From the NCBI RefSeq assembly GCF_964275005.1, contig NC_092706.1, positions 10,656,739 to 10,720,738 of the forward strand: a DNA stretch of 64,000 bases, given 5' to 3'. How positions within the stretch are numbered: the stretch's first letter is position 1; each line of letters opens with the position of its first letter. This DNA is from Diadema setosum. Taxonomy: Eukaryota; Echinodermata; Echinoidea; Diadematoida; Diadematidae. Below the pieces are notes generated by a model. The model saw only the letters and a list, made by a program, of their open reading frames with translations. It did no database searches and was not told where the DNA came from. Shown here piece after piece: positions 8,312-64,000 of this stretch. Made by a program: the position numbers and the translations under genes.

Positions 8312-8443
8312 CTGCATGAAGTGGAAAGATAGAGTAAAGTACTACAATTAAAAACTTGGTTTCAACTGGAAAGTTGATGGAACAATATCTAGAAAAATAT
8401 CCTGCAACCTTCCTGTCACTTGATGTCTTTAACAGGGTATAGG

Positions 8444-8600
8444 ATTTGTGGGTAAACTCGGCCCCTATATACCATATATGTGTTGTGTACGGCGACAGGG
8501 CTGCATATAGTTACCGTACCTATAGTCATGATAGTTGACCCCATTACAAGGGGCCCCGAGTTCACCCATCATTAGGCCTAATCGAGTTTACCCACAAAAT
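8444..8600. mobile_element. Nested palindromic MITE
   Basis: ATTTGTGGGTAAACTCG at the left is mirrored at the right by CGAGTTTACCCACAAAAT. A second inner inverted pair, ACTCGGCCCC and GGGGCCCCGAGT, lies inside. 157 bp, upstream of the recognised MPND exons. Confidence 0.65.
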
Positions 8601-12620: not shown

Positions 12621-12984
12621 ATACAAATAATAATTATTAAAATGTAGGTGTGGGGAAATCAAATACTCTTCGATCATTTAATGACCAATCACAAGAGTGA
12701 CAAAGCAGCTCACGCTCACAGTGAATGATTTATTTGATCTGTGAACATCTGCGACTTGTTACTGATATTGGTTGGAATCGTGCGAACCGTATTATCTTCG
12801 TCGCCTAACGTAATCTGTAATAACCAAATCGTAATGGGCATTGTATCGTTGGCGACGGTTCTCGCTATGCTTGATTAGGCTGAGAAGTAATCGAGTTTAA
12901 TACATTTCGTCATCACCTTTGCATTCCGCCAATATAACAGAGGTCCGAACAGCGAATCCGCTTCAAGCAAAAAATCTTGAAAAC

Positions 12985-14802
12985 ATGGGTGTTCCTCGTA
13001 AGGAACGGCTATGTTTCGCTGTTGCGATACTCCTCATGACTATAGTTGCTTGTGTTGACTTTTCTATCATTAATCACCGTCTCCGCACACCGCTTGCGCT
13101 ATCATCACGGAACTCAGCGATCGATCTGGAAGCTCAGAAAGTTAGCAGTCGGGTAGATTCGAGAACTCGGGAGCCTGAACATTTGGGCAACGGGCAAGAT
13201 AATCAGAACCACGAGTTGGTAGCACCACAACCGCTGGATTCACAAGATCTTGAAGGCATCCAAGAGATCCAAAATGACGTCGCAGAGGTCGAGAACGGAC
13301 GCAAGGAGACACTGGACTTGAAAAGGACCATTAGGGACGATTCGAGGCAGAAACCGTCGCGCGAAATTCACCAGCATAATGGTTCCGAGCTGGAGAGACC
13401 TCGAAACGAGACACCAGAGAAGGTGAGAGACCTCTCTCAAGTTCGGAAGGACAGTGATGGCGTCCTACAAGGAGAGGATAAGAGAGAGATACCACTATCA
13501 GATGACCTGGTAGATGCGATTCTAGCGAAGATGGAAGCCAACGGAACACTCTTACGCAGGATTGGACAACTGATATTTGTTCCAAAACCCGTTGAGCAAC
13601 AGCAAGACAATCCGAAAGAGCAGTCTGGTGGACAGATTGTAGGTCAGAACAAGGATCGACTGACGGGCTTACAGCCCGGGGGACAAATTTTAGGTCAGGA
13701 CAAGAGACCAATGGATTCACAGATAAGTAACCAAGAGAGAAAAATTTTCGAAGTGAACGCAAAGGGTAATGATACCGGTGTCGAACACTCAAACGTGCAC
13801 TCGGAGCAGGTGGCTCCAAAAGATGTGCGAATTTCTAAAAATATGACGGTGTGGAAACCTCGCACAGATCAGCATAATTACGGGTATCTCCTCAATCCTA
13901 AAGAAGCGTGCAGCAAAAATGTGAAACCGAGACAGAACCTGACCCTGTTGATAGTCGTTGCCACAGCGCCCTCAAACAGAGACCGACGCAACATCATCCG
14001 CCAAACCTGGGGTGGAAAGGCGAAAGCTTACAACGCGTCCGTCAGAAGCCTGTTTCTCCTGGGCTCTCCTGACTCAGCAGAAGCCCAGAAGGCGATCTAC
14101 GAAGAAGCTGCAAGGTACGGTGACATCGTACAAGAGGACTTCCGAGATTCTTACTTCAACCTATCCATAAAGACCGTCATGGGCTTTAAGTGGGCGAGGA
14201 CGTTCTGCCCCAACAGTGACTTCGTTATGAAGACGGACGACGATGTCGTCCTGAATATCCCCAACCTCGTGCACGACCTGGCGGCGATATCGCAGATATT
14301 CCGGACCAACTTCGTTGTAGGCAAAATGACCATAGTATCACCAATAAGAGATGTCAGGAGCAAATGGTATACTCCCTTAGATCTATTTCCCGAAGATAAG
14401 TATCCTGTTTATCCTCAAGGGCATGGCTACATCGTGTCCTCGGATGTCGCGGATAAGCTATTCCGCGCTTCCCAGCAGACTCCCCTCTTCCCCTGGGAAG
14501 ACGTCTACGTGGGCCTACTTCTAAGGAAGCTCCAGGGCGTCAACTTCGTCGACAGAACTTCCTTCGGCTTTTCCGACTGCATTCGTCACTCGACTCATGG
14601 GGTTATTCAGACGAACAATACCCTCCTGGCGCTGCGTCGGGGCTACCTCACCTGGGATCTCGACGTCGAGCAGATGAAACTGGTGTGGAATGCGCTAGAG
14701 ACTAACCGATGGCCCGGAATCAATGGAAATGACAAGCTTAAGTGCAATCAAACGTCCATTGAAAGGGCTAGTCTTCTGACATGGATAGAAAGCAATCCAT
14801 AA
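12985..14802 (+). CDS. Beta-1,3-galactosyltransferase-like protein (GT31), intronless
   Basis: 605 aa. The first ATG in frame is at 12985; the frame is open 5' of it to 12919 but only through a TTG. It is a type II Golgi membrane protein: a short basic N-terminus (MGVPRKERL), one membrane segment at about residues 9-28, a long charged stem (about 30-320) with N-glycosylation sequons and a GGQIVGQ/GGQILGQ near-repeat, then a GT31 catalytic domain. Family signatures seen are NRDRRNIIRQTWG, the metal-binding TDDDV (D418-D420), PVYPQGHGYIVS and WEDVYVG (E505, D506). Members transfer galactose or GlcNAc from UDP-sugar in beta-1,3 linkage; the exact donor and acceptor cannot be read from sequence. 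The single-exon structure is common for B3GALT genes. The stem is unusually long for the family. A possible poly(A) signal lies at 15089. Confidence 0.9.
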   Translation: MGVPRKERLCFAVAILLMTIVACVDFSIINHRLRTPLALSSRNSAIDLEAQKVSSRVDSRTREPEHLGNGQDNQNHELVAPQPLDSQDLEGIQEIQNDVAEVENGRKETLDLKRTIRDDSRQKPSREIHQHNGSELERPRNETPEKVRDLSQVRKDSDGVLQGEDKREIPLSDDLVDAILAKMEANGTLLRRIGQLIFVPKPVEQQQDNPKEQSGGQIVGQNKDRLTGLQPGGQILGQDKRPMDSQISNQERKIFEVNAKGNDTGVEHSNVHSEQVAPKDVRISKNMTVWKPRTDQHNYGYLLNPKEACSKNVKPRQNLTLLIVVATAPSNRDRRNIIRQTWGGKAKAYNASVRSLFLLGSPDSAEAQKAIYEEAARYGDIVQEDFRDSYFNLSIKTVMGFKWARTFCPNSDFVMKTDDDVVLNIPNLVHDLAAISQIFRTNFVVGKMTIVSPIRDVRSKWYTPLDLFPEDKYPVYPQGHGYIVSSDVADKLFRASQQTPLFPWEDVYVGLLLRKLQGVNFVDRTSFGFSDCIRHSTHGVIQTNNTLLALRRGYLTWDLDVEQMKLVWNALETNRWPGINGNDKLKCNQTSIERASLLTWIESNP

Positions 14803-17952: not shown

Positions 17953-20900
17953 ATGGCTTCCTTCGACGCTCTCGCTCTTGTAGAACAATGTGAACAGCAA
18001 GAACTGGAGGTACGTATAGTGAACTGTTACTTTGCCAGCGATGTGAAATGCTTCTGTAACTTTCAGCAGACATGAGAGATTGTCGATAAACACCATTTTA
18101 CTTGTCATACGGGAGCAGTGACAAATACGTTCGCGCAGTCACCTATCAGTCCCATATACTAATTTCTGTGTATGCGGTGCCATTCGCATGTTATGAATGC
18201 CATGCGTGTAGTGTAGAACACGCGTATTTACACGCATATATAGAATCTCGTATCCGGGCAATTACCCCGAGAGGGCAATTACCCCCCGGCCAATTACTGG
18301 TTGGTGGTAAGGTTAGAGTAGAGATTAGGGTTAGGGTTAGGTTTAGGGTTAGGAGTTTGGGTTAGGGTTAGGGTTAGGTTCAGGATTAGGATTACGATTA
18401 GGGCCAGGGGAAGGGTGCGGGTAACTGCGACCAGCAGCCCCAACGTACAACGTACAGTGTTGGGGCTGCGCCGTTTTGGCCTCGATATTTTAATGTTGTA
18501 CCAAACGGGTGCCGTTCCGGCGCTGTATTTCCTTAATTTTTCAACAAAAACTACTGGCAATACTTACATGGGTGGACTAAACCTAAATGATTCTTATCGG
18601 CGACTGTTTGATGCATTTCATTGCTTATGATGCAGAAAATGCTGTCTTCAAGGCAAATATCTTCAGCTCACCGATGCTCACTAAAACTCACAATCACTTG
18701 CACATGCGCACACAATGCATTCAGTGCAGTGCATTGACAGCTGTATTACTCGCTACATGATGCATATTCACCTTGCGATGATGCATTATTCATATCCTTT
18801 TGCGTCCGTAACGTTGACGTCATTGTTTACGCATGCGTAGATGCGTACTGATGGATAAACACGTTCAAAATAGCAGCAAAGCTCTCCACTAGGGCAGACC
18901 GCCTACTCCTAAAAAATGTGGAAAATTATGCAGTTTCCAGATAAATTGGTGAGAAGGACCAAGGCAATGGGGTAGTGTATATTTCATTTTATATTGTCAC
19001 TGTGTTTATGATGGACATTTAGCTATGGTTTATTTGTGAAGTTGCCGTATATGTGGCAATAGGGAGTTGTTCGTGATTCTCACTTGCACGAAACTGCGGG
19101 GTAGCCGCCAGGACCCCGCCGCAGAACGGCGGGTCTCCGGGGCTAGGGTGCGGGTAGCCCGACCAGACGCTGTTAATACGCTACGCGAATACAGCGTCTG
19201 ACCAACGAGCGGGCACCTACAAAGTGGGGAACCACAACACAACTACAAAACTTATGAAAATTTATACGTTCTTTATAAACAATGTACACGTTACCAAACG
19301 TTACTCACCTTAAGTGCATGCTTGTATTACAGAAGGTTCGTAAGTCCATTGAGAGCCCTCGTGATAAGTCCGTGGAACCAAAAAATGATACTTTCTGGCG
19401 GATTCCCTAACACCGTCAGGGTTCATCGTTGCAGAATTCAAAATGGCGCCTTGATCTCTGCGGAAATCTTTTGCGTGCGTGCGATGCGCGATATAGCGCT
19501 GCTTGAGTGTTGGTGTAGCAGCACGGTCGACAGCGCGACCTTTTGAAAGGGCATTCGATCATGTGACCTCCCGAATATTGGAAATGGCCTGGCGTGAAAG
19601 ACGATGTACCGTTCGTGAACCGTTCACACATGCTGCATATAACCATCATTTTAGGTAAGTTATTAAATCTAAATTTCAATATTCATAGCATAGATATGAA
19701 GTCTCATTATCATTTTGTTCGTCAGATGAGTTTGAAGTGACAAAAAAATTATCTAAAGTATCAAAATTCAATCCGATCGCATGCGATCGTTGGACCCTCT
19801 TCGTGTTTGGAGCTTCGTTGGTACAGCCCTGTCGCGCTACGTATGTACAGCGGCGACTGGGCTGTGTATAGTTAGGGTGCGGGGTAATTGCCCAGGGGGT
19901 AATTGCCCTAGACCCATAGAATCTAGCCTGCCTACATGCCTGGTCATGATCTAGAAACCGTAGAGTATAACTAACGTTACAAAAGGTGTTTTACAGGCAA
20001 AATCGTGAAATAGGCCCAACCGCAGTGCGCGTGCACCCGTGCGTTAGCAAGCAACTAGCAAGGTTAGGTTTAGGGACCCTAACCTACATGACCTAGATTC
20101 TAGTCCCTATTTGTTAGGCCGGGAGGGCGGCCGGCCGGGCCATACATAGCCTTAGCCATTGGCATTAGGCATTATATGTTTAAATTAACAAACGTTAGGG
20201 GTGTTACTAGGTAGGCATCGTATTCATGACTGTAATTGTGGCAATTATGCACTTTACGGCCCTATATTATCGGTACCTCACGGTACCTCGCCGTGTGCTA
20301 AGGTGATATCCCATTGCCATAAACCACCCCGCACTGAGCAGCTGGCGAGTTTCTCTTGCTGTGTGGAATTCGGAACGCCGTTTGACAAGTGATATGGTCA
20401 CTAAAAGCCCGCCTCACTCGAGCCTGACCAGACCGCTGTGCACAGCACAGCAGTCTGACATGTACTAGTGTTTAAACGTACGTAAACGACTGTCGCTTTT
20501 GACGGCAAGACCACAAAAATGTCTTTTATTTTGTTTGATTTTAACAGTAATACCACCCACCTATATCATATGTTGCTGATGGTTGAGTTGAATTTGGTGT
20601 TTTGTTGGTATCCAAACCTTATTGTTGAATTTTTCGGAGTAGAATGTGCTATGATTCACAAAATTAACGAACAGCCACGAACGCTCAACCCGAGATACCG
20701 TGTTAGCATTTTACGTACGACCGTGTGTTACGTAAAGCTTGTCGACTGGTCTCGTCTTCTACCATGTATTTCCGCGCGTGCTGCTCTCATGATATAACGT
20801 CACTCCGACTACCTCCGACTACCTACGTTGTAGCATAGGAGAGTGATTGCCATTCAATAACACGCAGAAGATGAGGAGTGAAGCAATACGGACGCTCACA

Positions 20901-45237: not shown

Positions 45238-46969
45238 AGTGTGTATTTCCCTCTCTTTATTCACAATTCAACACTGATGGGAAACACAATGTAGATAATA
45301 TACTGTTGGATGTTTGCACTATAGAGATACAGCTGTACTCGGATCAATTTTTATGTGGGCTTGGACAGCTGGAGGATTAAACAAAAATTGCATTCATAGT
45401 ATTGTAAAATTTATCAAATGCATTGCTCTGAAGAAAATATCAGGACATACTATGCAGGAAAGCAGTCTTTGCACACCTTTGTTAATGGACAGATATCTGG
45501 TACTTAGTAATAAATGAAAGAAATTCATATTATGCAACAGTAAATAATGAAATGTCAGATGTTCTGTCCAAAGGTAAACAGAGGTCAGGATATGTCTTTA
45601 TCCTGGTTCAAATCACTTGATAAGTTACAGGAAATTCCATTTTGATATTATGCCAAAAACATTAACACTGTGAATACATGTAAGTGGTCTAGAAAATAAT
45701 TGTGAGGAAATGTCATGTTTTCTTGATTTAGTCTGTAGGCTATCATGGGCAGGCTGTAAACTTTGTCACAATCCAGAGGAAGATAAACTTCAACCTGACA
45801 TGAATTTAAATATGTGGGACTGAGCAGTCTGTCTGTAGTGACAACATTGAAGACAGCATATTATATGAGAATCTGAAAGCATCTATGAACAATTGCAAAA
45901 TATCTAGAATGAGATCTATATGAATAGAAAGAGCTCTGCTTTCTGGGGAGCAAAATACTGTACCGGTACATTGTTCTGTACTTCGTAGATACAGCTGTAT
46001 GGTATTTAGGTTACAATAGGTTTGCTGGCATAGTGTATTTCTCCAATCTGATTCAATAAGCTACATAGCATTAAAAGGGTGTTTATAAGCTGATTTATGA
46101 TGACAGTTTATGTTATTAAATGCATTTGCCCTGTGATAATCATTCATAGAGGTCTGTATGAATAGCAGATTTATGCAAAATCAATGAAGTTTTTCCCCAC
46201 GTCATGGTACTGTGAGTTTTTCCACACGACTACTAGTCCACTGCCTGGACTGCCTTCGTATTCGGCGTGCACACTAGCTGCTAGCATCACGCGGAAGTAC
46301 CGTCGTTGAGGGCGTGTAGTATAAGGAGAGACCCCCCGAAGACAGTCCAGTCGATCTTGCCACCTTTTCCCAAAATCTTGGAGCAACGCAATAAACGATG
46401 TGCTCCGCCTTCAACCCTTCCTCGGTGTCTGATTGGTTTAATTGCGTGTCAATCGATGAACGTTGTTGCGCGATGCAAATCTTTTCCTGGAAAAATACCT
46501 TGATCGCTTGCACGTTGGATATTCTTGGTGAAAGGCGCTAGAGTTATTTTCTTTTTACCTGATATTTGTAAAGTACGTCATATTTTACTAATTTATGATG
46601 AATAAACTCAAAATATTTGATTTTCCTCAAAAAAGAGCAAGTTGACTTCTGTGATAGGACAATAAAGCAATAAAATAAAGTTTTGGAGTACAATATTGAT
46701 TTTAAAAATTGAGACCGATTGACACATAAATGAAAACAGCTGGAATTTGCATGCATGCTGTGTTGCGCAAGGATAGCGATCGGTGTATTTTGTGCATGGT
46801 GTCATATTCCTGACTGCTTCTTGATTTGAGTGTACATTTATTCCTTCTACTGTGATTCGCGTGTATTACTATTTCGCTATTCGCTGGGGTTTGTTTTCAT
46901 CGATTTCGCTCAACTCATCCATGGCATAGATCAGTTACAGTTCCATCATTTTGAGTCTAATTTTGCATT

Positions 46970-49900
46970 ATGGCGACTGCCAGAGTTCGTTGTTTCACGG
47001 ACAGCGACATTCAGGCGGCTTTGGACCACGCTTCTACGCTGCTCGGATTCAGTTTTAGGAGTCAACAAGTACAAGCTCTCACATCTTTCTTGAAAGGACA
47101 TGACTTGTTCTTGAGTCTGCCTACAGGTTTTGGAAAGAGTGTGATCTTTCAAGCGGCCCCATTGTGCGTGGATTTTCTCTCTGACCAGCAGGATGGCCAT
47201 AATTCAGAAAGGTAAGACAGAGTTAAAGAACATCGCTCAAAGCTTTTATTTAACGTTACTTCCGTTAGGGCTTTAATATTCAGCTGGAAAAAAAAATAAT
47301 GTAGGAATAGGATACTAGGAGTAGGAGTGGACCCTACACACATGTAGCTAGCCTTGGTCTAGATCTAGTCAATGTGACAATGATTCTATTTGTTTTGTAT
47401 TAAACTTCTAACACGCTGTCAGTGTCACGTCATGATACCAGTGGGAACGTTCGTTAGTGTACCATGTAGAGATGTAATGTTTGTTACCAACGTTAAACGT
47501 TTAATGCTGATCTTGAGGTGTTTATCAACTGCTTAAAAATATACTGATACTAGTGATAGATATTTACATACATTGTTTGAAATTAAGCTTTGCCTTTGTT
47601 GTCTTTTAAGAGCAAATTTTAGGAAAATATTACATTGTATGTGCCAATAAATCCCACTCATATATTTATATATATATTTTTTTAAATCATGAAACTTGAT
47701 TGTTTTACCTGGGTTTTATTGCTGTGTTTCAGTTCACCGAGAGCAGTGGCCATAGTGGTTATGCCACTCAAGTCATTGATAGCGGATCAGCTGAGCAGAG
47801 CCAGGGAGCTTAAGATCAACGCTGCCGACGTATCTGGAGGACTTACAGATGAGCTACGTGAAGGCATAACCTCAGGGAACTACTCAATACTCTTCGCAAG
47901 TCCAGAGAGTTTATTAGGAGAGGCTGGAAGAGAGCTCTTCCTCATCACTACCCTGACAGACCATCTCTGTGGATTTTTCATCGATGAGAGTCATTGCGTT
48001 TCAAAGTGGTAAGTGTATTATGTAGGCTTACATGTACATGTGTGCACTGAAACATGCCAAATGACAAATTCAGATCAACTTTAAGCTGATTTGGAACAAA
48101 AAAAACCCAAAAAACAAAGTGAAAGAAAACAATTTTTGTGAAACTTGGGTCAGAATCGGACAATAAGATATTGGTGACATATTTCATAAGCTTCAATAAT
48201 TTTCACATTTGAATTTTAATTTCACATTTGAATGTGAATTTACTTGGTTTCTCTACAATATCATGTATTACATAACAGAATGCATCAAAATTTGTTTGTA
48301 GATATCAATATGTAGATTTTTTATTCATAAGAAAGTGTCTGAATAACATATATTTTTAATGGTTTGTTGTATTGTAAGAAAATAAAATGATATTAAATAA
48401 GGAACAAATTTACAAATTGATAACTCTGAAGAGAGGCTGACACAACAAGAGAGACTGTAACATCATGTTTGATGGCAATCAATAGATTTATTTAAAGCAT
48501 AAATTGTACTTGAGCAAATTGATATTGCTGATATTTGAATGCTGTTTGGAGAGAAGTTCAATTTCCATCACAATTGAATCATGTACCCGGTATTTTGAAT
48601 TTGATTGAAGTTGGTACAATTTCATATTTCAACAAGAGAGATTTATCTTGTTTTCCCTATTTCCAATTATTTATTTCAACTGGATATTTAAAAAGGTTGT
48701 AATATTGGATGGCAATACAACTGCGCATAAATTGTACTTGAGCAAATTGATATTGCTGATATTTGAATGTTGTTTGGAGAGAAGTTCAATTACCATCACA
48801 ATTGAATCATGTATTTGTCAACATGTCAATTTTTTTTTTTTCCTTTGTCCCTTTTGTACAGGGGTAATTCGTCTGGCGATACCAAGGCCTTCAGAAGTGC
48901 GTATGGTCAACTTGGTGAGATCAGGTCAAAGATGAAGTCTCACGTACCAACAATTGCGCTAACAGCAACAGCCACTACAGAAGTTAGGAACCTGGTCTCA
49001 CACAGTCTTGGTCTCCGCAACTTTGTTGCTGTAAGTGAGTCACCGGAGAGGAAAAACATTAAGCATGTCGTGTTGAGGTCACGCACCAGAGATTTCGACG
49101 CTATCTTCAAGTGGCTAATGAATGAGCTTAGAGATAAAGGACGGGACTGCCAGAGGATCATCATCTACTGCCAGTCGAGGAAGGTGGTAAGCGAGTTGTA
49201 TTCATCGTTCTTGGCGAATATTCCAGGCACTCACCACCAGTTTGTGAACATGTATCACACGAACACCGAGTCAGATGTTCAAGATGACATCATTCAGAGT
49301 TTTGCTGAAGAAGATGGAACCATTCGAGTCTTAATAGCAACAATCGCATATGGTATGGGGGTTGACTGCAGGGGGGTCTACAACACCATCATCTGTGGGC
49401 ATCCAACTGACATCGATGACTATGTCCAGATGAGTGGAAGGATTGGACGTGATGGAAAACCAAGCGTAGCGGTTACAGTGCAATACCCTGGAGACAGTTG
49501 TGGGCGACCAACTACTCAGAGCATGAAAGCCTTCCTGCAAGGAGATCGTTGTAGGAGAGGAGTGATCCGGGAGGTGTTTGACTGCAAATCGGCAGATACA
49601 AGTAGCATCAGTGCACAGTTTTGCTGTGACGTCTGCAGCAGCGAGCATGCCTGCAAAGAATTCGACGTCGAAAAACAATTACGCGATGCATTGCGTGAAA
49701 AGGACATCAGAGAGGAGTTGCCTATTAATGTGCCTTCTGCCAACCAGATGACAAAACTAGAAAATGCTCTAGAAGAGTACAGACTGTCACTGCTGAATCA
49801 CGACCCGGACCACATTTACTGTGGTGGAGACATCACATCAGGTCTACCAAGAAGCGTATTGGAGAAAATCGTGAGAGAGAGCATAGTGGAGTATCCATTT

Positions 49901-50116
49901 CACTCGTTTGTGAAGCGTTATGCTTTCCCGAACAAAGACATAGCGGATGAAGTATGGTCAATACTCTGCACAGTCCTTCAGAGATCACCTTCGAAAACAG
50001 AAACAGTAGCTGCTTGTGATAGTGACAATTCAGATTCCGAGTATGAGTCTTCCATTGTAGATGATGAGGACGAGTATCAAGAGGCAGTTCTGTACAGTGA
50101 TAGTGACAATGACTGA
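46970..50116 (+). CDS. RecQ-type ATP-dependent DNA helicase, 590 aa, three exons
   Basis: Exons 46970-47211, 47733-48008 and 48862-50116 join in phase. All SF2/RecQ motifs are present: motif 0 (FSFRSQQ), Walker A PTGFGKS (51-57), Ia VVMPLKSLIADQ, II DESH (165-168) followed by CVSKWG, III ALTATAT, IV IIYCQSRK, V ATIAYGMGVD and VI QMSGRIGRDG (about 362-371). A RecQ zinc-binding segment follows (C403RR..., CC427-428DVC431). There is no recognisable winged-helix or HRDC domain, and the C-terminus is an acidic tail (DSDNSDSEYESS... DEDEY). It is shorter and more diverged than host RECQL, BLM or WRN. RecQ helicases unwind DNA 3' to 5'. No frame breaks were seen. Its convergent neighbour at 56541-63153 is transposase-like, so this may be a transposon-borne helicase. 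Alternative: a host RecQ paralogue. Confidence 0.88.
48497..48813. repeat. 89-bp direct duplication in the helicase gene intron 2
   Basis: 48497-48585 and 48725-48813 are the same 89 bases (GCATAAATTGTACTTGAGCA ... CAATTGAATCATGTA) with two differences, offset by 228 bp. The second copy ends 48 bp before the exon 3 acceptor. Confidence 0.9.
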
Positions 50117-52088
50117 TCAATTAGTGGAGGACTTCAGTTGTAAATGCATGAACTTACAGTGTAACTTATCCTATTGAAGGTATCCTATTGAAACAGACTC
50201 ATGTACTGTACATGTTTTCTTTTCTTTTCTTTTATGTACTAGTTTTAATAGAAACTTCAGTAGCTTGATTGGGCCATCTGCATGTCATTGAGGCTTTTCT
50301 GGAATTTATTTCATGCAACATTCATGTTTGGCATCCCTGGGCAACTTGGCTACCAGTCGTGGCTAGCCTTGATTGTATGTCACACACTGTAAGCACATAC
50401 ATACAGTAATAAGAAAAATTGATTTCTGCTGTTCACATTGAAGATATCCAGCATTTTTTTTTTTCATGAGGGATGTGATTTGTAAAGTATATTACTTTCT
50501 ATGTAAAAATGTACACCATTTTAATCTTGCTGGAAGTATCCTTGTACATACTGTAGCCACATACATGTACATATATTATACACCGTAGTAGGTCTTAGAT
50601 GTTTGTCCATCCAGTTACAATCACTTTGAATAGGACAGTACCAAAAAAAAAAAAAAAAAAAAATATGTCAGGCTGCATTTATGCCTTCACTTTGAATTCT
50701 TACATATATTTCCTTTTTTTCATGTCACAGTGTGGGCATTGTTTTTTGGCACTTTGTGTGTAAATTTAATGATACATGTATAAAATATAGCAGCTTTTTC
50801 TTTTGAAGTGCCAATTTCGCTTTATACATGTGTATGAAATTTCCTCCGTAATTACTGTACTGTACTTATGTGATAAACAGAGAATAGATTTTTATGACAT
50901 TGAACAGGTTAATGTGTAAAAGCTAAGTGATCAAAGTTGTTGTTTTTTTGGAGATTATGAATGGGGTGATTTTGTTGTTTTTGTTGTCTCAGTTTATTAG
51001 GATTGAAGTTTGTTCAGTGCTTTGTAAACTTATCCATGTTCATTGTACTTTCTGACTTGTTGAAATTTGCCCACAATTAAGATGTGGACAGTTGTCACAA
51101 ACCATGTAACATGCCTGTCACGTATCACCAAACTACACTGTACAAGCACTTTTGAGTGAGCTTTGCATACATACAGTGTACCTGTTCATGTTCAATTTTT
51201 TTTTTTTTTTTTATGTGAGGACAAACATAAAACAGTGTCTTACAGGATTTGAAGCTGTCAGGAATTTAGATAAATGTCTGTACAAACTTTAACAAAATCA
51301 TTGAGTGATTTTTTTTTTCACCTTACTGGTTGTTAATCTGCATGTTACTTGTAATTACTCTTTAAAAAGAGATTAGTTTCGTAATTTGCTTTTGTTTCTA
51401 ATTTGATTCAGTTGTGCAATTCTTGAAGGTGTGTGTAGTGCTGCTTTGTTAAAACCTGTCAAAAAAAACTTCATGCTTTCTGGCAGCATGAACACTATAC
51501 TGTTGTCAAGGTAATTGTAATAGTGATCTAATTGAATCTTGCAAATGGAGCAGTCAAGCATTACATGTACAGGTCCTATACATAGTCTTGTCTGAGGGAT
51601 TCAATGATGCTGCACTTAAAGTGAAAACATACTGTATTTCTGGTAAGGGTTTGAGGACCTGTCTTGCACCATTTCATATTTGCATGAAAGAAAGAGTCTA
51701 CATGTACCATAAAAAACTTACTAGTAACTGGCTGACACGATTTGCAGGGATGATAAGTTGTTTTAGAGTTGTCCCAAAGTCCGAGCTAGCCTAACCCAGA
51801 TCGAGTATTTCTGAGATTGCGAACTCGGCAAACCTTTTTTTTTTGTTTAATAATATTTCACATTTTTGTTGTTACCTTATGAATATCTTGTTATTCCACA
51901 CATTTCTTAAGCATACATGTACATTTGGGAGCAAAACTTGTTTGTTTTTGGAGGCTTACCAGAATTACATTGTATGTTTTGGTTTTAAAGAGTTACGTGC
52001 AGACTGTTTTGACGCTTTGTTCATGTCTTTGCTTTCATGTTCAAATATGTGTAAATGTTTTTTAAATTATTGTTTCTCTGTGTACGTG

Positions 52089-52094
52089 AAATAA
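52089..52094 (+). terminator. Possible poly(A) signal downstream of the helicase gene
   Basis: AATAAA about 2 kb after the stop. Other AT-rich candidates exist closer, so usage is unknown. Confidence 0.2.
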
Positions 52095-52262
52095 AGAACC
52101 CAATTTGAAAAGGTAAGAAAATGATGTGAATGTAATTTTTTTTTTCAACATAGCATTTAAAAGGTGTTCAGTGTTGACATTTATTTTTTTTTATTTATTT
52201 TTTTTTTTGCAATTCATTATATTTTAGAATAACTTGGGAATGTTGTAAACATATATCATATA

Positions 52263-52879
52263 TCCTGTGTGTTCGGTGTTATATTTTGAATGAAAGTGTT
52301 TGTGTGAGAATGTCCTGCAGAGGTGCGGTTCCTTGAAAGAATGGTGGAGATCCTGTGTGTTTGGTGTTATATTTTGAATGAAAGTGTTTGTGTGAGAATG
52401 TCCTGCAGAGGTGCGGTTCCTTGAAAGAATGGTGGAGATCCTGTGTGTTTGGTGTTATATTTTGAATGAAAGTGTTTGTGTGAGAATGTCCTGCAGAGGT
52501 GCGGTTCCTTGAAAGAATGGTGGAGATCCTGTGTGTTTGGTGTTATATTTTGAATGAAAGTGTTTGTGTGAGAATGCCCTGCAGAGGTGCGGTTCCTTGA
52601 AAGAATGGTGGAGATCCTGTGTGTTTGGTGTTATATTTTGAATGAAAGTGTTTGTGTGAGAATGTCCTGCAGAGGTGCGGTTCCTTGAAAGAATGGTGGA
52701 GATCCTGTGTGTTTGGTGTTATATTTTGAATGAAAGTGTTTGTGTGAGAATGTCCTGCAGAGGTGCGGTTCCTTGAAAGAATGGTGGAGATCCTGTGTGT
52801 TTGGTGTTATATTTTGAATGAAAGTGTTTGTGTGAGAATGTCCTGCAGAGGATGCGGTTCCTTGAAAGAATGGTGGAGG
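52263..52879. repeat. 88-bp minisatellite, seven near-identical copies
   Basis: The unit begins TCCTGTGTGTTTGGTGTTAT and ends AAAGAATGGTGGAGA. Units start at 52263, 52351, 52439 and so on. Differences are single bases only (C for T in units 1 and 4, one extra A in the last). The homogeneity implies recent amplification. 88 is not a multiple of three, so frames through it are not a coding repeat. Confidence 0.95.
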
Positions 52880-53988
52880 GAGGAATTCAAAGGAAGATGT
52901 AGATTTGGTTCTCAAGATTTACTAAGGTACAAGAAGAAAAAAGAATCACTGCGAAAGAGCTTTAAAATAGGATACATACTACACGTACCTTGTGACTGCA
53001 ACAAATGAACATACATGTAATTACACATGTAATTTCATTTATATTGTAGATAACATTGTTGATACAAACTTGTACATGATACCACACATGCAAGAAATAT
53101 TGCATCACACAAGTGATAATCTGGCAAGAGAAGATTTTATTCACTTCCACCTGGTATCACAGAACATGAAGACAAAAGCCTACAATAATCTAACTTGTCT
53201 TTTATGTGTTTAACCTGACAAGAAAAGAAACAATCGTAGGGTTAATCATTCCAAGTACATATGTTATTATGCATGTAAAGGCAAGAATTGACTGACTGTT
53301 ACAACCATAACTTTATTTCTGAGGGGCTGGCTACTTAGAGCTGCATGTGTGTACATCACTTATGTACTCCTTATCGAAAAGGAACAAAAAATACCTGTAC
53401 TATCTGTTGTATCTTTGATTTGTATACCTGCATTTCAGAATTGTAATGGCAACTACGGTAGCTTAATATGGAACATTTTACCAACCAGACTAGGCATAGA
53501 ATGGCAAGAAATGATTGCAGATTTGAATTTCGATTATACGATGGCAAGTGAAGATGAATTTGTATATTTACACGAAGGTTTACAATAGAATGCCTATAGA
53601 CTGAAGGCTAATCCGTACTGATAAGAGGAAAAAATAACTTGCAAATCTTAGAACATAATACATAAGTGTATGCATAGATACGGGTGTACACATAAAGGAC
53701 ATCATTTATGGCAATGTTTATGTATGGATTGGCAATTTAGGCATGCCTAGTGTGAATGGCATCAAGGTATCATGATAAGAAGACAAGCTCCAACTAACTT
53801 GACTGACCAGCTGGTTTTCAACTCAATAGGAGGAATTCACAAGATTTTCTATCAAACTATCCTCCATACACCATCCTCCCTTGCCCGTCAAAACATTCTA
53901 TCTTTAACTCTAAATAGATCCCATCACACCATTTTCTTCACTCAGTTAATTCCGGATTTCTCCATTTTGAAGATGGATTTTGCTACTC

Positions 53989-54001
53989 CCCCCCCCCCCC
54001 C
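53989..54001. repeat. Poly-C tract
   Basis: About 13 C in a row. Confidence 0.8.
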
Positions 54002-56540
54002 AACTGACAAACTTTAACATACAAAATGTTGACACAAACTTCAACCTCATAATAAGTTGAAGACACAGATGTTGCACAACTATGGGTCTGAATTTGCTGT
54101 GCCATCTGAAATACTAACACATATTTGTCACTTCTGCTTCACAGGCCAGACAAAAACAAAAAAAGTACAAATTTGGTCAAATTAGGACAATCTTTCAATT
54201 AATTATGGCTTTTCAATGTTTTGATAATTCTTTGCTAAATGGGGTTCCTTAAAATGGCAACTGCTCTAGCATGCTTGATGACGTTGTGAAGAATCCACAG
54301 GTTTGTACACACATTGTCTCATATCTTTGTTTCTCTTTCTGAAATTCTAATTGTGCAATTGTCCTGTTTCTTTCAGAGTTATTGTAGCCCTGGCATATTG
54401 AAAAGACATATCAATTTGAGGATCCCCATAATAATGCAAGTAAACTCTTCCTGAATATTACAAATGCAATTAAACAAATGAACTTTGATTACATTGTACT
54501 CTATGCAAATTTTTCATTCACAAACAAAATGGTGCATCATGAAAAGTATGTGTTCAAACAAAGAGAAATATCACCGTATAGAGCATGTACTGTGAGTATA
54601 TACAATATGTAAATTCCTTTTCCTCTCTCACAGGGAAAGTACATATATACAATGTATGCATGTACCAGTACTAGTAGTCAGTATATTCAGAGCACGAGTA
54701 ACTTTGTCAATTAAAGTATTATGATCAATCAAAAGAAAACCTCAAAGATGAACTTGGGAATGGTTTCATGTACAGTGTTACAGTATCTTGAGTATAAGAT
54801 ACGGCATACCCATACATTTGTAGGAATGTAATGCAAACAACCACATTTCAAGTTGCATATCCTTCAGTGACTCAACTGAATTTTGTTATATTGAAGTCCT
54901 CCTGACTGGCACTTTTCTTTCTTATCAAGTATATTTGTTATAACTGAACATATAAACAATAAAAATCATAGAGTGGATAATGCGGTGACCTGAATCTTTA
55001 TGTTGCTGTGACCAGAATTTCATTATACATGTAGCTGTGTTATTTGCAATGGGAGTGCAATAGTACAGCACAAAATTTCAAGGCAAAATGAGGTAATTGA
55101 GAGAAAAATAGAATAACTATATTTGGCATAATGAACATATTCTGCTCAGTATCTTAATGAGCTACCCTAAAGTAAACATTCCAGAAAAAAAAAAATAACA
55201 TACTCTCACGGTAATCTCACCATCATGTCAGCTGCACAATGTTTCAGAGAAAAACATAATTCTTTATATACAGCAGTATTGCAAAGTCAGCACTACACAA
55301 CATTAAGTTGACAAAATTATGTGTCATGGCAGAATAATTGCACCTTGAACCACCTTCCAATGACATTTGTATCTGAACTGGCATTTTCTAGCACCGGCAC
55401 AAAGGGGACTTAAGAGTCATTTTTCATACAGGAACATAGGCCCTACAGTGTTTGTATTCATGTAACTGAAATACACTAAATGCATCAATGCAAAATCACT
55501 CACATACTTTAAACAGTATTTTTTTTTTTCAGTTCGCAAAAAACTGTCAAAACTGAATTATACAGTTAAAGCTGCCAGAGAGGCACCCTACAGCGTATCT
55601 CTGGCAGCCATCCTACCTAAATGGACCCAAAATAATTTTCTGCAACTAGCTCAATATGATTTGCATGTAACACATAATTCTTTTTTCTTTCGCTAGCCTA
55701 AGACAAACTAATTGCAAAACACATATGACGTTTTCCACTTAAGACCCGACTGTCTCACAGTAAACATTGAAATATTCTTAAAAACAAACCAAGGACATAT
55801 ATCACATCACAAAGACTAATTTTTCTATGTTGACATGCTGATAGTAATGGCACACATTGAACTATATTGCAGCAATTAAGAACGAGTACTTCAAATACAT
55901 CATTCAAAGTTAAAACATCCAAAAGCTTCACTTCTGTGGCAAGAAAATTACTGGTACTGCTTGAACACAAGCAATTTTTACATCATATAAATAGAAAAGA
56001 ACAAAAAGAACAATAACTCCCATTACATGTGTATCAGGTGTATTCTTTTTTCAGATCATGACAAAAATGTTGCCATTCATACACCTATGTCAGAAGGTCA
56101 TGTACTTTTATGCATGATTATAAACATTTGTACAAGATATGCCGCAAAACCTAGTTCTTTTAAATTTCACAGTACCTAGACAAGTACTGATTGATGCTCT
56201 TCATGAGTATCCAACTGGTGTGACTACTGGGCATTGTGATGTATGGAAATGTAAAGATTGTATCCACTATTTCAGGTCAATTTGTTAGTGTTGATGACAA
56301 AGATTTCACTTTTACCCACACTTCACAATGCTTTTCTTTGTATAATACAATCTACCAACATATTTTGCAGAAAAAAAAAAGTTCCACAACACATAAACCT
56401 TCTTGTCTACATGTCACTATCACATGTGCACCATAAAATAATAATAAAAAAAAAATAGGGAGGGGGTGATGCAAGACAAGGACAGATAGACTGCCAAACA
56501 TAGGCCTATGGACACATTGTGGGGCATCAAAACATATGTA

Positions 56541-59500
56541 TTACACATGCTGAAACTGATTCTGCCTTGATAGGGACTTTAATGTAGTGGAGATCCACCT
56601 ATGTAAATCTGAAATATCAAGGGCTGAGAGGACATTCACAGGAAAGTCTGGAAACTTTGAATGCTTCCGCCCTGCAGTTTCAACAAAGATGTCCTCATCA
56701 TTCAGAATTTTGGCCAATGCGTCCACATCTCTGTGGCCAGTTTCCTGCCTCTTTGCCGAGTCTTTCTTCACGCTAATCTGTGCATCCACATTCGTCAGTA
56801 AGTCATGCACTATTTGTGCTGACCGACTAACCCTATCAACACTCTGCTGTGTGATATGTCCCCGTAGTCCATGACAGCTCTCCTTAAATATCCTATTTCT
56901 GTGCTCCATCGCTCTGTCCACTTCCACATTACATCCAATTTTCCCTTTGGAATTGACAAATCTGTTCCAGGTTAGCTCATATGCAAGACGTGGTGAAAGG
57001 AAGCATTTTACCTGAGCTAAAAGCCGAAGAATATGGAAACTATACTTCGGTTTATTTGCTGCTCGGCAATGTAACAGCAGGAGTTTGTATAATCTAATGA
57101 TACGCTCCCCATCCCCCATTTGTCGCGCATCATTGAAGTCATGTGCTAACATGCCCATACCAAGGGCACACCTTGTGTAATTGAATACCCCATCTTGGTT
57201 TGATGGATGCTGATCCTTAGGACCTGGAGCCCCTGGGTGCTTGCTCCTCTCGTGTTTGAGAAGACCTTTCCTTGACATGTATTTTTTCCCACAACTGCTG
57301 CAGATCCACTCATGATGATCCATATCAATCTCAGATTCTGTCGGGAGCATGTATGTGTCCACAAACTTTGACATTGTTGCCTCAGCATGTTGCTGAACAT
57401 TACCATGTTCCTGGAGGTTGAATCTTTGTTTGGTTGGCTCAGCTGAAATATCTTCCAGTCCAAAGTAATGCAGGGCTGCAGCAAGAACCAGGGCAGTTGT
57501 AAATTTCATCATCAGATCTGCAGCAGCATTGATATTGTCCATGGGGTTTGTTGTGACATTCCGAGCTTGCAGGAAATTGCGCGCAGAATACAGGGTACCT
57601 GTGTCAGCCGCAGATGATGCGTCATAGAGGTGCTTCCAAATGACCTGCATAAATAATGAGAGAAAAAAAGATGACGAAAACAAGATTATGGGGAAAAATG
57701 ATTAAATGATAAAATGATCCATTGAAAATAAGAAATAAAAAACATGTTCTATTACAGACAGAAACTCATCTTTGGCAACGTACTTTGGCAAACCTCCCTA
57801 ACTTTTGAAGGGTTGGAAGGGGGAGGGGTGGGAAAGGGTGAAGTCCACCCGACCAAACACTTCTCCAGATCATTCCAAACAACCGCATCTAGATTTATTT
57901 CATAACTAATTTTATTAAAGTCTGGAACATCTTTTGCAACCAAGACTACGAATACAGGAGAAAACTAACAAATTATTCTACATGTGTGTCAGCACAAAAA
58001 TCACTCAATTTTTTTAGACATAATCCGTGAAATATATGTTGTCGAAAATGCAAATTCTCGCAAATTTTATTACAGTCTTGTATAATGCATTACATGGTCG
58101 TCACAGCAACACGTATTCCATAGCTATGATCTAAAGGTTGTATCAAAACCTGAATACATCAGACTGATTAGGACAAAATGTCACTCACATGAGGAACAGT
58201 GGTATGTATCTTTTTTACCCTGAAGAAAAACACAATATGTATATTGTATTTGCTTTGTGTATTGACAGTACTAGAAATAGCAATAATAATGTCACAATAG
58301 AGGAATGCATTAAATTTGAATTAAATTGAATTTTGAATTAAAATCAAGGCAATTGGCATTTAATGTATTCCTATTGTGGCATTATTATTGCTATACATAC
58401 TTACCTTATAAAAATTGGCAAGGGCATGGAAATCAGCAATGACTGGGACCAAGCCTTCCATCCTTCTGCTTGGGGTGGTTGAGTTCCTTTGCTGCTCAAT
58501 GCAGTTTGATTCCCTCTCACATGTTAGCAGGTCACCTGCACTCAAGATCCTTGTTGGATGTGATGATGCATCTCCTGGCACATACGCATGCATGTGATGC
58601 AAAATTTTCAGGATACCCTCCGACGTGTTTTCGTTTTCCATTAGCACTCCAAGGTTGACCTGGCATTAAAAAAAAAAAAAACAAAACAAAGAGATTCCAA
58701 GAAAAAGCATGTCAATTTAGTTTTTATTTCAAGTTAAATTATCAAAGAAAGTGAGGCTCTAATGTAGCATGTGTAAATCACTAAAAAGAAAAATAGACGG
58801 AAGTTTTTTCTGATATGAATCTTAAACAAATCGTTTTAATTTTTTGTACAACAATTCCAGATATTCATGATAAAAGTGAAAAAAAAAATTAAACACTGTT
58901 TATTATAGTATGATTTTCATGATAAATATAAATTCAAACTCTACTCTTTAAATGATTTAATCAAACATTTTTTCTTTTTGTGCAACTCCAGATATTAATG
59001 GATTCCATGTTAAATATTAAAACAAATAATTATAAAAGCAATTTGACATTATAAAAGGCCAGGGTATGCAAATTATTTCCTAAAATGTAATTCATACAGT
59101 CAGGTCAACATTTCATTAATTCCATCTGTCACTACTTAACAAATAAAGACGAGTTTTTACCACTTTTGATTTTTCCTTCATCTCAGTCATATGGTCATGA
59201 ACTATAACTTGTGGCAGCAGATCCATCATGGGCTTCAGAGATGGTATGTGCTCTGCAATCATTCTTGCTGATAAAACCATCCAGTCATGTTTCAACTGTG
59301 CATTGTCTTGCATGTTTGGTAACAAGTCTTTGTTATCGAATGATTCCAAAGTGGCAACTGGATGTGTACAGGGAAGATGCCATGCAGAAACTCGGTGCTG
59401 CACTGCCATCAACTGAACCATATGATGGTCTTTCCCGAAGTTTTCTCTTGTAGGGTGTCTTGCCCTCACCACCATATCAACATTGTCCATAACAAGTTGG

Positions 59501-60247
59501 TAACTGCTTGTTCGGGTAGCATTCAACTCATCTATCTTTTCTGTGTCACACATTGTTTTGAAGACTCTTTCTTTTTCACTGTCTTCATGAACCTCCATAG
59601 CCCACTGCTTAAGGGGTACATCATAGTCTTTGCCGCATTCCGTTTGAATTCTAAGTGTTGTATCATACGACGAGCTAATTCCTTTGGCATTCAATCTTCT
59701 GAAAGTCGATTTTTTTGCAGCACCTTCCTTCAAAGTCAGGGCATTCAGAGCTTGATGAGCATTCATGTTCTGGCTTCTGCAATTCAGCAGTACACCCGCA
59801 GCAATCATCACTCTTGGCTGCAGGCTTTCTTTGGTTTTTCTGATGTTTCTCTCCACACGTGGTGCTACAGCAGCAGTCTGTAAAGCGGCAAAAAATGTGG
59901 GTGCAGTCTCTTTTAATTCCTGCTCCTGCTCCTTGTAATCAAATGAAAGCATATCATCCACAGATGAGCCCCTAAATGCAGATTTTGTTGTTGCCCTACA
60001 CATCTCAGTCACCTCATTTTGAATTCTTACAGATATTGCATTGTCCACTTCCTTTTGTGCAATATCCATGGCAACCACCTGTTTTACTGCTGACATTTCA
60101 TCCCCATGGCATAGTGCTGCAGCCACACCATTCCATGCAAAAGGCAAGGTTTTTCTTCTGCTTGTTCTGCCATCGTTGAAAGCCACCTACAATTACAGAC
60201 AAAGAAAAAGAAAAGAAATAAGAAAATGGCATTTGCTTATTTTACAG

Positions 60248-60287
<40 letters not shown>

Positions 60288-63153
60288 TCATTTATATTCA
60301 GTGCACAATATGATGCCGATGAAGTGCAATTTGGGGGTATTATTTTCCTGCCTACAAAGGCTCTCTTATTTGGAAAAAATCAAGCATGCATCTTTGTATC
60401 ATATGTAAAAAATACATAAACTTTGGGGAAATGGTTAATACATGCATTTCCATGTCCATCAATCAAACCTTTCATTATCCAAAAACAGATCAAAGTCAGA
60501 GTTTAATTTTTGAACACTGAAGCTTTATTTTGAAAGTTTTAGCTTCAAGTACAATGTATGTGTATCCCTGGCATTACACTAATCCTCATGTTGCATCTTT
60601 CCAGATTAGTGTTGTCTCTCTTTTATAAATCTGATATCTGCTCCAGATATTTGAAAATGAATGAGCCATCTTTGTTATTGTTGCTGTTGTTGTTGTAGTT
60701 GTTGGTCACTTCATGATTTTAATTTCACTTTCATATTTTTGTCAAATATGACATTTACTCAGATTTCTAGAATATAAAAAGAAGCAAAGTGTATGGAACA
60801 CATCTAAAAGAATTACAGATAAAAGGAAATCAATACACTGTCATTATTACAATTCTATATTTTAACATAAAAATTATCTAAATTGAATTAAGGCATACCT
60901 CTGAAGAAAGGGAAGATGAGGCTACTGCTGCTGGTTGGTTTTCATCTTGCTCCAGGAACACAATCCGTCTTTGCGATACTGATGCTTGAGGTGAAGCAGT
61001 GAAGAGTTTTTTGCTGTGATGCTGCAAAGAATAGGATAGAAAGACTCATGATGGGTCATTTTCATTCACTCACCTCTTACTTGCATTTTGTTTGAACTAG
61101 ATTTTCTTTTTTTTTTAATGCTCTTGAAACTGATAGGAAAATTAATGATGGAACTTGAAATATGATACAGTTCCTGTTTCTGCATGTACAAGTCTTTGTG
61201 CAAACAGTGTTCTATAGTCAAACTACTGTACTAGTATTTTTTAATGAGGGGTAACTATATGGATTGTACAGCAGATGTAGGATTTTTTTTTTGTCATTGC
61301 AAATATATACAGAACAGGTGTTACTATTCTGCACAAAACCTACATCATCAACCCCCATATGCAATTGTATAGTTGGGCTACACTGTACTATACACAAACA
61401 AATATGTAGCACCTACATTGTTTTTTTCCATTGGACAAAATCAGTATGGGTATTGATTATTTGTTTTCCATTGCTATTATTATTATTATTCAGCTTATTG
61501 GCAATCAGACTTGTACCACAAAAATGACCAAATAATGAGCCATTTCACAAGGAAGTTTTATACCTGGTATATTAAAAGTATGGTTGGCCATTGCTGGCTT
61601 TAAAAAATGGGTTCCTTCTTTTTTTATCAACTTTTAAATATGTGAACAATTATGTGAAATATTTGTGGGTGTGATTATTTACAATCACAAATATCCCTTT
61701 AAAAGGTGCGATACAGATACTGCAAGACAGCAGTATACTAGTGACCAATGTAACACAGTGCTACCAGTAGTATATTTCACTGCCATACTTTGATTTTATT
61801 TCTAAAGCATTTGTTTACAAAAGCCTTGTGACTTGTGTGAAGAAGTGTTGTATATTGCAGTGCAAGTTGTAGGCCTACTGTTTCGATATTTTTTTTTCTT
61901 CCAAGGGATCCCTGGCCAATACAGGGTCCACGGGGGGGGGGGGGGGGGGGGGGGATTATTGGAGATCCAGACAATGACATATCTGTAAGTGTAATATACA
62001 TTTCTGTCTGAGAAATAAACGGCAAAGCCAAAAGTCGTCATCATTTTGCAAACATTAAGTGCAAGGTGACTATTAAAGATGTTAATGATGACATAGTTGA
62101 TACTGATGACATGCTAGACAAAGAAAATATAAATAAACAAATAAGCTCAACTTTTATCTTCTTTAATCTCCCTTTCCATTATACTAACAAGTTAGGGCTA
62201 CATCAGGTCAAATGATTTTTGGGGTTTCGTTTTGTTCTTTTTTTTTAATATAGGCCTAGGGCCTACGGTGAATCTTCATGGTGACACAACCTGCCTTTGC
62301 CCCACCTCCACTTGTTTGTGTGGATACCCTAGACCTAGACTTCAACTTTTTTTTTTTAACCAAATGCTAAATGGCTTATCCACCTCCTCTTCTTCTATTC
62401 ATGATCAGAGTATTCATGACGTATAGGCCTAGAACTAGGCCTATATATCTACACACTAAGAAGTGATTAAATGTAATGCCTTTTGAATGGCATATGGGGT
62501 TCTAACGTTAGTCGAACTTGTTGTAACAGGTATCAGTGACAGTGGCATATTTTCTAGGGTCGACGAAGTGGTAAGACTTAATAAAAGAGTGGCATACAGT
62601 TTAGCCAACTGGCATGAATTATAGGCAGAAATCATTATATTACTAATTCAGACGACCGGTCGGGTTGTAACCTGCCACAAAGGAAAATGCAGAACACATC
62701 AGACATGTAGAAACTGTCTAGGCCTACCTTTGTTGATGGTGTTCCTGGTGAAAGCAATGCACGTCGCTTTGTTCTTTTACCCACCGGCAACGGTGAAGAC
62801 ATACCAATTGGTACTGCGAGTTCGCGTTCAGCATGATCCTTGTTTTCATCTCTGGGCGTACCACTACTAGTACTAGTAATGGTAGTGGATCTAGCATGTT
62901 TCTCCTTGGTGGTGATGTAGTTTCTCTTCAGTACTTCCCGCAGTTCATCTAGCTTTGAAACGTTGTTTATTGAGCTGATGCATTTTCCACACAAATATTG
63001 GTTGTTAAACTCGTCTTTCCAGTCAAATATGTCCTTTATTTTAGCTTGCAGTCCGAGTCTGATGACTTTGGTTGAATTTACCTTTACGTAATGCTTTGTT
63101 GTGACCAGCTGCACATTACACACCATGCACCATCTCAGCAGTGAGCTCGCCAT
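56541..63153 (-). CDS. DDE transposase-like protein (DUF6589/Academ-like) with ZAD-like and C2H2 zinc motifs, 977 aa
   Basis: Five exons: 63153-62728, 61021-60899, 60186-59161, 58659-58405 and 57644-56541. Each has a length divisible by three and GT-AG borders. The start ATG opens MASSLLRWCMVC. Residues C9, C12, C55 and C58 form a ZAD-like treble-clef pattern, followed by a basic linker. The core has YQLVMDNVDMVVRARH (D417), AGDLLTCER (D568), VIADFHALANFYKVIWKHLY (D601, H603), RFVNSKGKIGCNVEVDRAMEHRNRI (E857) and HGLRGHITQQSVDRVSRS. I recognise this arrangement as the DUF6589 family of animal and fungal mobile-element proteins. D417/D601/E857 are proposed as a DDE triad (inference). A C2H2 finger (C725, C728, H741, H746) sits between the second Asp and the Glu. 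No breaks seen. It converges on the RecQ gene. Alternative: a host gene derived from a transposase. Confidence 0.78.
60250..60285. repeat. (CA)n microsatellite in intron 2 of the transposase-like gene
   Basis: About 18 CA units, about 65 bp upstream (in transcript sense) of the 60186 exon acceptor. Confidence 0.9.
61935..61954. repeat. Poly-G tract
   Basis: About 20 consecutive G in intron 1 of the transposase-like gene. Confidence 0.9.
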
Positions 63154-64000
63154 AGCTGCAAGTTGCTTAACTTACTCCAAACACCGTTTCCACAGGCATC
63201 ATCACTTCTACTACTAGTACTAGTCCTCGCACATTTCATTTAAATGCACTAGATCAAGGCGAATCATGTGTTTTGGGGACAGCTCGATCCTTCCAAATCT
63301 CTGAATCACACAATAGTGAAAGTATTGAAACGTCAAACTTTCAGCCAATGCAACGAATGCATGCAACGCAGTATGCACAATGCATCCAGGGGTCAGCTCA
63401 TTCAGCTGTGACAACACACTGTACAATGTAAACAGGATTTGCACAACACGTGCACGACGGATACTGGGTCGATCAAGTTACCGATCGAAACGTCCTTGAG
63501 TGTTTTGCATATTCATGATTTGAGCGGTGCGCCAACCGTTACGTCACTTATTATGACAGAGGTTCCACGCCCACTGTTTGCCAACTTCGTCGGGACTCTT
63601 TTTTTCGGGGGCAGCAATTTGTGGACTCGCGCGATGCGTGGACTGTCGCGATCAAGAAGACTTCGCGCTACCGCCAATGAGGGCGTATAAGAGAGTGAGA
63701 AAAAAAGAAAAGAGTCCCGTATCGGGACTACACGACTACCTGCCTTTGTTTGGCTCGCCTGTGTGAAACACACTGTGTCAACAATTGCATACAATGGCAC
63801 ATCCATAGAACTGGTCTCCATCTTTTAACACACACACTTCTAGTTGGTTTGCTGCTTTTTGATAACAAGATTCAGCCAAGTTGATACCCCACCCTCCAAA
63901 TTTGCCTCTGTTGTTGTCAAGTTCTAGGCATAGCCAAAATTTGAACCATTTCCAACCGTTAGAAAAGTTAGTTTCACCATAAGTTAGAACTAGTGGTGTC
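63154..64000. other. 5' flank of the transposase-like gene; GC-rich patch, no gene seen
   Basis: Contains the promoter region of the minus-strand gene. CGGGACTCTTTT (63592) and AAAAGAGTCCCG (63708) form a 12-bp inverted pair about 115 bp apart, a possible small element. If the helicase and transposase genes form one transposon, its right end should lie here or just beyond the window. No inverted match to the left flank (46160-46960) was found by eye. Confidence 0.45.

Follow-up and report, generated by a model that had tools for sequence, protein, structure and literature searches.

A 17.5-kb transposon pairing a RecQ-like helicase gene with a DUF6589 gene in Diadema setosum, very probably of AcademH kind

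Two genes that face each other in the genome of the sea urchin Diadema setosum, one for a RecQ-like superfamily 2 (SF2) DNA helicase and one for a transposase-like DUF6589 protein, raise a simple question: are they chance neighbours, or do they move as one element? Both lie in a stretch of 64,000 nucleotides (C24:10656739-10720738, hereafter the window) of a genome of 913 Mb in 102 contigs. We find that the pair is one cut-and-paste unit of 17,497 bp, with defined ends, 9-bp target-site duplications, a second full insertion accompanied by its empty site, and many copies of its ends, including short derivatives. This bears out the initial annotation, which had proposed the pair as a candidate helicase-bearing element of about 17 kb. 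With high confidence, we regard it as a 17.5-kb two-gene DNA transposon of AcademH kind, in which the DUF6589 protein would be a DDE-type transposase and the RecQ-like helicase its partner.

Ends and target duplication of the window element

The limits of the element in the window are the following (positions of the window).

46234-63730, no strand: whole transposon, 17,497 bp, set by its ends and the 9-bp duplication; an exact left/right end pair has this spacing
46225-46233, no strand: target-site duplication, left copy CACGACTAC, identical to 63731-63739
63731-63739, no strand: target-site duplication, right copy CACGACTAC, exact over 9 bp
46234-46251, plus strand: left terminus TAGTCCACTGCCTGGACT, an imperfect palindrome, identical at the end of the second full element on contig C6
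63713-63730, minus strand: right terminus TAGTCCCGATACGGGACT (minus-strand reading), a palindrome

Transposons of this sort generally have terminal inverted repeats. Here the repeats are 18 bp long and imperfect, the two ends being alike at 12 of 18 positions (counted by eye); they read TAGTCC...GGACTA and lie 0.6-0.7 kb outside the coding limits. The initial annotation had reported neither a terminal inverted repeat nor a target duplication and had expected a duplication of 3-4 bp; both features are in fact present, and the duplication measures 9 bp. The ends were mapped with the help of an internally deleted derivative on contig C3 (see below), which narrowed them to near 46.2-46.6 and 63.7 kb, after which a 10-mer shared by the flanks gave the exact positions. 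Among the 25 longest of 166 matches of a generic inverted-repeat search, most were AT-rich and none marked the ends; direct alignment of the two flanks of the element gave no long inverted repeat.

A second insertion, its empty site and short derivatives

By the terms of the initial annotation, the lack of any second locus with the pair would have told against a mobile unit. One such locus is complete, on contig C6, and another, on C7, is decayed.

C6:31802814-31836948, no strand: second full element, 34,135 bp, convergent pair, exact 9-bp duplication CTGTTGTAG
C6:31804556-31809041, plus strand: RecQ-like gene, in the same order as in the window
C6:31819752-31831264, minus strand: DUF6589 gene, in the same order as in the window

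The left end of the C6 element, at 31802814, is the same left 18-mer as in the window, and its right end is at 31836948; exact 9-bp duplications flank both elements. The C6 genes share roughly 36-73% identity with the window genes, depending on the stretch, and some of the C6 helicase matches contain stops; the C6 helicase may thus be damaged. The element sits among 396-bp tandem repeat units (flanks L070 and L093), of which those compared are about 99% alike. This setting provided the empty-site comparison: a neighbouring uninterrupted repeat unit has a single copy of the target, and it aligns with the joined flanks, through the junction, over 755 bp at 98.9%. On C7, DUF6589 exons and a RecQ fragment (34.8% identity, 2e-17) converge. 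RecQ neighbours of transposase loci were checked on C24, C6 and C7 and at two places on C3 (4.3 and 16.3 Mb); of the four loci at which two or more transposase exons were matched in both searches, three carry the pair.

Copies of the ends are far more numerous. Allowing up to two mismatches, the left 18-mer occurs at 405 places in the genome, against 17 for the same pattern read backwards, and the right 18-mer at 119 places, against 24. Most one-mismatch places of the right-end pattern, among those listed, have the variant TAGTCCCGACACGGGACT, perhaps the mark of a separate family whose ends are similar. Pairing of the exact 18-mer places listed (100 left and 25 right) gave at least 18 facing left/right pairs within 40 kb, the window element being one of these. 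A search with the right-end DNA, whose query stopped at the element end so that the boundary itself lay outside its reach, found 44 stretches matching at no less than 78%, with 97-99% over about 125 bp for the best of the short matches.

We compared 17 short elements of 236-1588 bp, namely 14 exact pairs under 2 kb and three with one mismatch in the right end. Eleven are flanked by an exact 9-bp duplication, two by one with a single mismatch and two by one with two mismatches; the remaining two have none (four or six mismatches). Eight of the 17 (L072, L074, L075, L076, L077, L079, L082 and L083) have the common flank GCAGGATGCTGGAT and are copies of one insertion, thus one derivative multiplied inside another repeat. 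This leaves ten independent insertions, seven with exact 9-bp duplications, two with one mismatch and one (L084) with none. A 10-bp duplication was also considered and rejected, as the tenth base agrees in only two of the 17 short elements (L085 and L087).

At C3:16332041-16335445 (L016 and L089, reversed), left-flank and RecQ exon 1 DNA is joined to transposase exon 1 and right-flank DNA. Since both ends of the element are joined there, this locus is an internally deleted derivative; it is flanked by the exact 9-bp duplication GTCTCCTGT. Within it (L016 reversed, about 119-255) lies a short palindromic insert with ends GTGCGTCAGTCGGAAT...ATTCCGACTGACGCAC, perhaps another short inverted-repeat element.

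The two proteins and their copies

The genes themselves were rebuilt by splicing and translation, as the initial annotation had described them: two intact convergent genes of 590 and 977 codons, without stops in either spliced frame and with GT..AG at all introns.

46970-50116, plus strand: RecQ-like SF2 DNA helicase gene, 590 aa; exons 46970-47211, 47733-48008 and 48862-50116
56541-63153, minus strand: DUF6589 transposase-like gene, 977 aa; five exons, 63153-62728, 61021-60899, 60186-59161, 58659-58405 and 57644-56541
52262-52878, no strand: internal tandem repeat between the two genes, 88 bp in 7 copies, 99% matches, the satellite that had been noted there

Pfam matches of the helicase are DEAD (7.9e-17) and Helicase_C (2.3e-16). 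Its closest solved chains are BLM, WRN and bacterial RecQ, with the likeness lying within residues 28-386. In the 977-aa protein DUF6589 (PF20231, 3.9e-41) is the sole strong Pfam match. A weak C2H2 finger at residues 724-746 (zf-C2H2_4, 18.4 bits) falls under the cut-off of 27; its two cysteines and two histidines are retained in the relatives on C6, C7 and C3.

The DNVDM, IADFHAL and AMEHRNR blocks, which had been called DDE-like, are present at 417, 599 and 855. Most relatives compared share a series of acidic motifs: DN(V/A/I)D, then GD some 150 residues later, DFH or DWH, and E followed by N(R/K). The last three are also seen in DUF6589 proteins encoded by long single frames on C10, C15 and C9. 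Two exceptions were seen, a K instead of the E in a C17 copy and, by eye, an A in the DFH motif of the protein at C10:13407582. For the second catalytic aspartate, a conserved GD at 567-568 is as good a candidate as IADFHAL; the catalytic residues are predicted from these motifs. One scan of the DUF6589 alignment against viral contigs found no relative, and the term DUF6589 was not found in the literature searched.

For the helicase, 76 matches were listed (74 of 265 candidates scored) and merged into 56 loci; about 13 loci have any transposase match among those listed. Both counts are lower bounds. Among the listed matches and the 100 exact left 18-mer places listed, 32 of the 56 RecQ loci are preceded by such an 18-mer, no more than 10 kb upstream and on their own strand, while none has it on the opposite strand or downstream. 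Non-autonomous copies probably carry helicase remnants with them. When 22 RecQ loci were compared with one another, 18 (17 places, as two overlap) aligned over 0.2-3.7 kb at about 72-99%, and many matches at the aligned loci contain stops. The two loci C4:23734473-23737904 (L064) and C22:16736245-16739676 (L065) agree at 99.1% over 3.4 kb; together with about 15 more loci they are related helicase-bearing copies, many with stops and several with an exact left 18-mer upstream.

Against partial copies on C2, the ratio of nonsynonymous to synonymous substitution (dN/dS) is 0.33 overall for the helicase (408 codons; 0.23-0.53 by stretch) and 0.30 overall for the transposase (179 codons; 0.18-0.42 by stretch), suggesting selection for protein function in the source lineage. 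Between the window genes and those on C6, dS is saturated. As for the suggestion that the element may be recently active, some derivatives support it, with identities of up to 99% at the right end; for the full element the signs are the open frames and the exact duplication, which suggest, without proving, that this copy may still be able to act.

Elsewhere in the window we noted other frames, a galactosyltransferase (12901-14802), a JAB-like exon (757-1296) and a RAMA-like exon scoring under the Pfam cut-off (8094-8510), as well as a degenerate interstitial TTAGGG array of about 13 units (18311-18408).

Class of the element and rival explanations

AcademH, the helicase-encoding lineage that the initial annotation had named, reportedly occurs in animals and fungi, as the title of Kojima 2020 (Mobile DNA 11:15) has it. 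According to PMC10045372, AcademH elements have duplications of 9 or 10 bp, seemingly tied to their helicase, and AcademX elements have duplications of 3 or 4 bp, seemingly tied to a nuclease. The window element resembles the former as described there: a helicase gene (DEAD and Helicase_C, with BLM, WRN and RecQ nearest) stands beside a transposase-like gene, and duplications of 9 bp flank the window element, the C6 element, the C3 derivative and seven of the ten independent short insertions. It differs from AcademX, as described in the same text, in its 9-bp duplication and in that a Pfam scan of its two proteins gave no nuclease match. Because the helicase and the 9-bp duplication match both features given for AcademH, we file it, with reservation, as a new AcademH-type family, on the description in citing papers. 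A likeness to AcademX lies in that DUF6589 also occurs in long single-frame proteins of the same genome. An example is C10:4683253-4687699 (L098, L095 and L099), perhaps an AcademX counterpart: one frame stays open there for at least 1482 aa and has DUF6589 at 3.8e-13. Its C-terminal part (EESD, SIDRD, GCDF) has, by eye, what we take to be an XPG/PIN-nuclease look; searches with this protein in Pfam and among solved structures gave no confirmation of such a nuclease.

Two other superfamilies come into question. According to PMC9587614, KolobokH, found only in fungi, encodes a RecQ helicase, and Kolobok-1_CCri of a red alga has one on the complementary strand; like these, the window element joins a RecQ helicase and a transposase. 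The same text gives Kolobok 4-bp TTAA duplications and ends 5'-RR and YY-3', whereas the window duplications are 9 bp and not TTAA and the ends read TA...TA, and we hold a KolobokH-like transposon to be extremely improbable. A MuDR/MULE-type element that acquired a RecQ gene agrees in the length of the duplication. MuDR/MULE duplications are 9 bp long. The 977-aa protein, however, has no Pfam match to a MULE transposase at E<=1, and DUF6589 stands as its sole strong match, so that this origin is very unlikely. The arrangement of two convergent genes in one animal element is also known from ProtoRAG and RAG-like transposons (PMC7204232); the likeness is an analogy of layout, as the proteins differ.

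The possibility raised at the outset, that unrelated genes lie side by side by chance or that a host-domesticated pair no longer moves as a unit, draws on two observations: no second locus closely resembling the window element across the two genes appears among the listed matches of both proteins, and in the partial comparisons each gene shows hints of constraint. Against it stand the exact duplication at the outer ends, the second locus in the same order, the empty site and the derivatives with both ends. These refute a chance neighbourhood, and the rival as a whole, domestication included, is highly improbable. It is less easily dismissed, though still rather unlikely, that the helicase is a passenger dispensable for movement, with the DUF6589 protein acting as the transposase. 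Short derivatives have moved without room for a helicase gene, though possibly served in trans, and many helicase matches contain stops; yet a convergent helicase has been kept on C24, C6 and C7, and there are signs of constraint on it.

Several observations weigh against the AcademH-kind, two-gene transposon that we prefer. RecQ loci outnumber transposase loci, so that the genes are not always together. No RecQ match at E<=1e-4 was found in the 12.3 kb examined beside the DUF6589 exons at C3:4.32 Mb, and no end 18-mer at up to four mismatches in the stretches examined there and on C7. L084 is one independent short insertion in ten without a duplication. Transposase exon 1 gives no sign of constraint against the C3 derivative (dN 0.095, dS 0.067, 139 codons; ratio above 1). 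Finally, the DUF6589 profile had no match at E<=10 among solved structures, for a protein predicted to have a DDE fold.

For this two-gene transposon a mechanism may be suggested. The most likely role of the DUF6589 protein is that of a DDE-type transposase, which would bind the short palindromic TAGTCC...GGACTA ends and join them to the target at a stagger of 9 bp; we infer both which protein cuts and the DDE chemistry. For the RecQ-like helicase, the most likely task is to open or process either the ends or the gaps that strand transfer leaves, and an element of this sort would have mobilised the short derivatives in trans. A bolder version, which we consider doubtful, has the palindromic 18-bp ends forming hairpins that the helicase opens or resolves; the helicase would then be part of the cutting machinery and set the stagger, unusual in being 9 bp, and helicase-bearing copies without an obvious transposase would use one transposase in trans.

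The element fits a kind already known though little studied, AcademH. DUF6589, a Pfam family of unknown function, is now tied to a mapped transposon with ends and target duplications. With an open-frame two-gene copy, a second full element, an empty site and short derivatives at hand, the role of a RecQ-type helicase in DNA transposition becomes testable.

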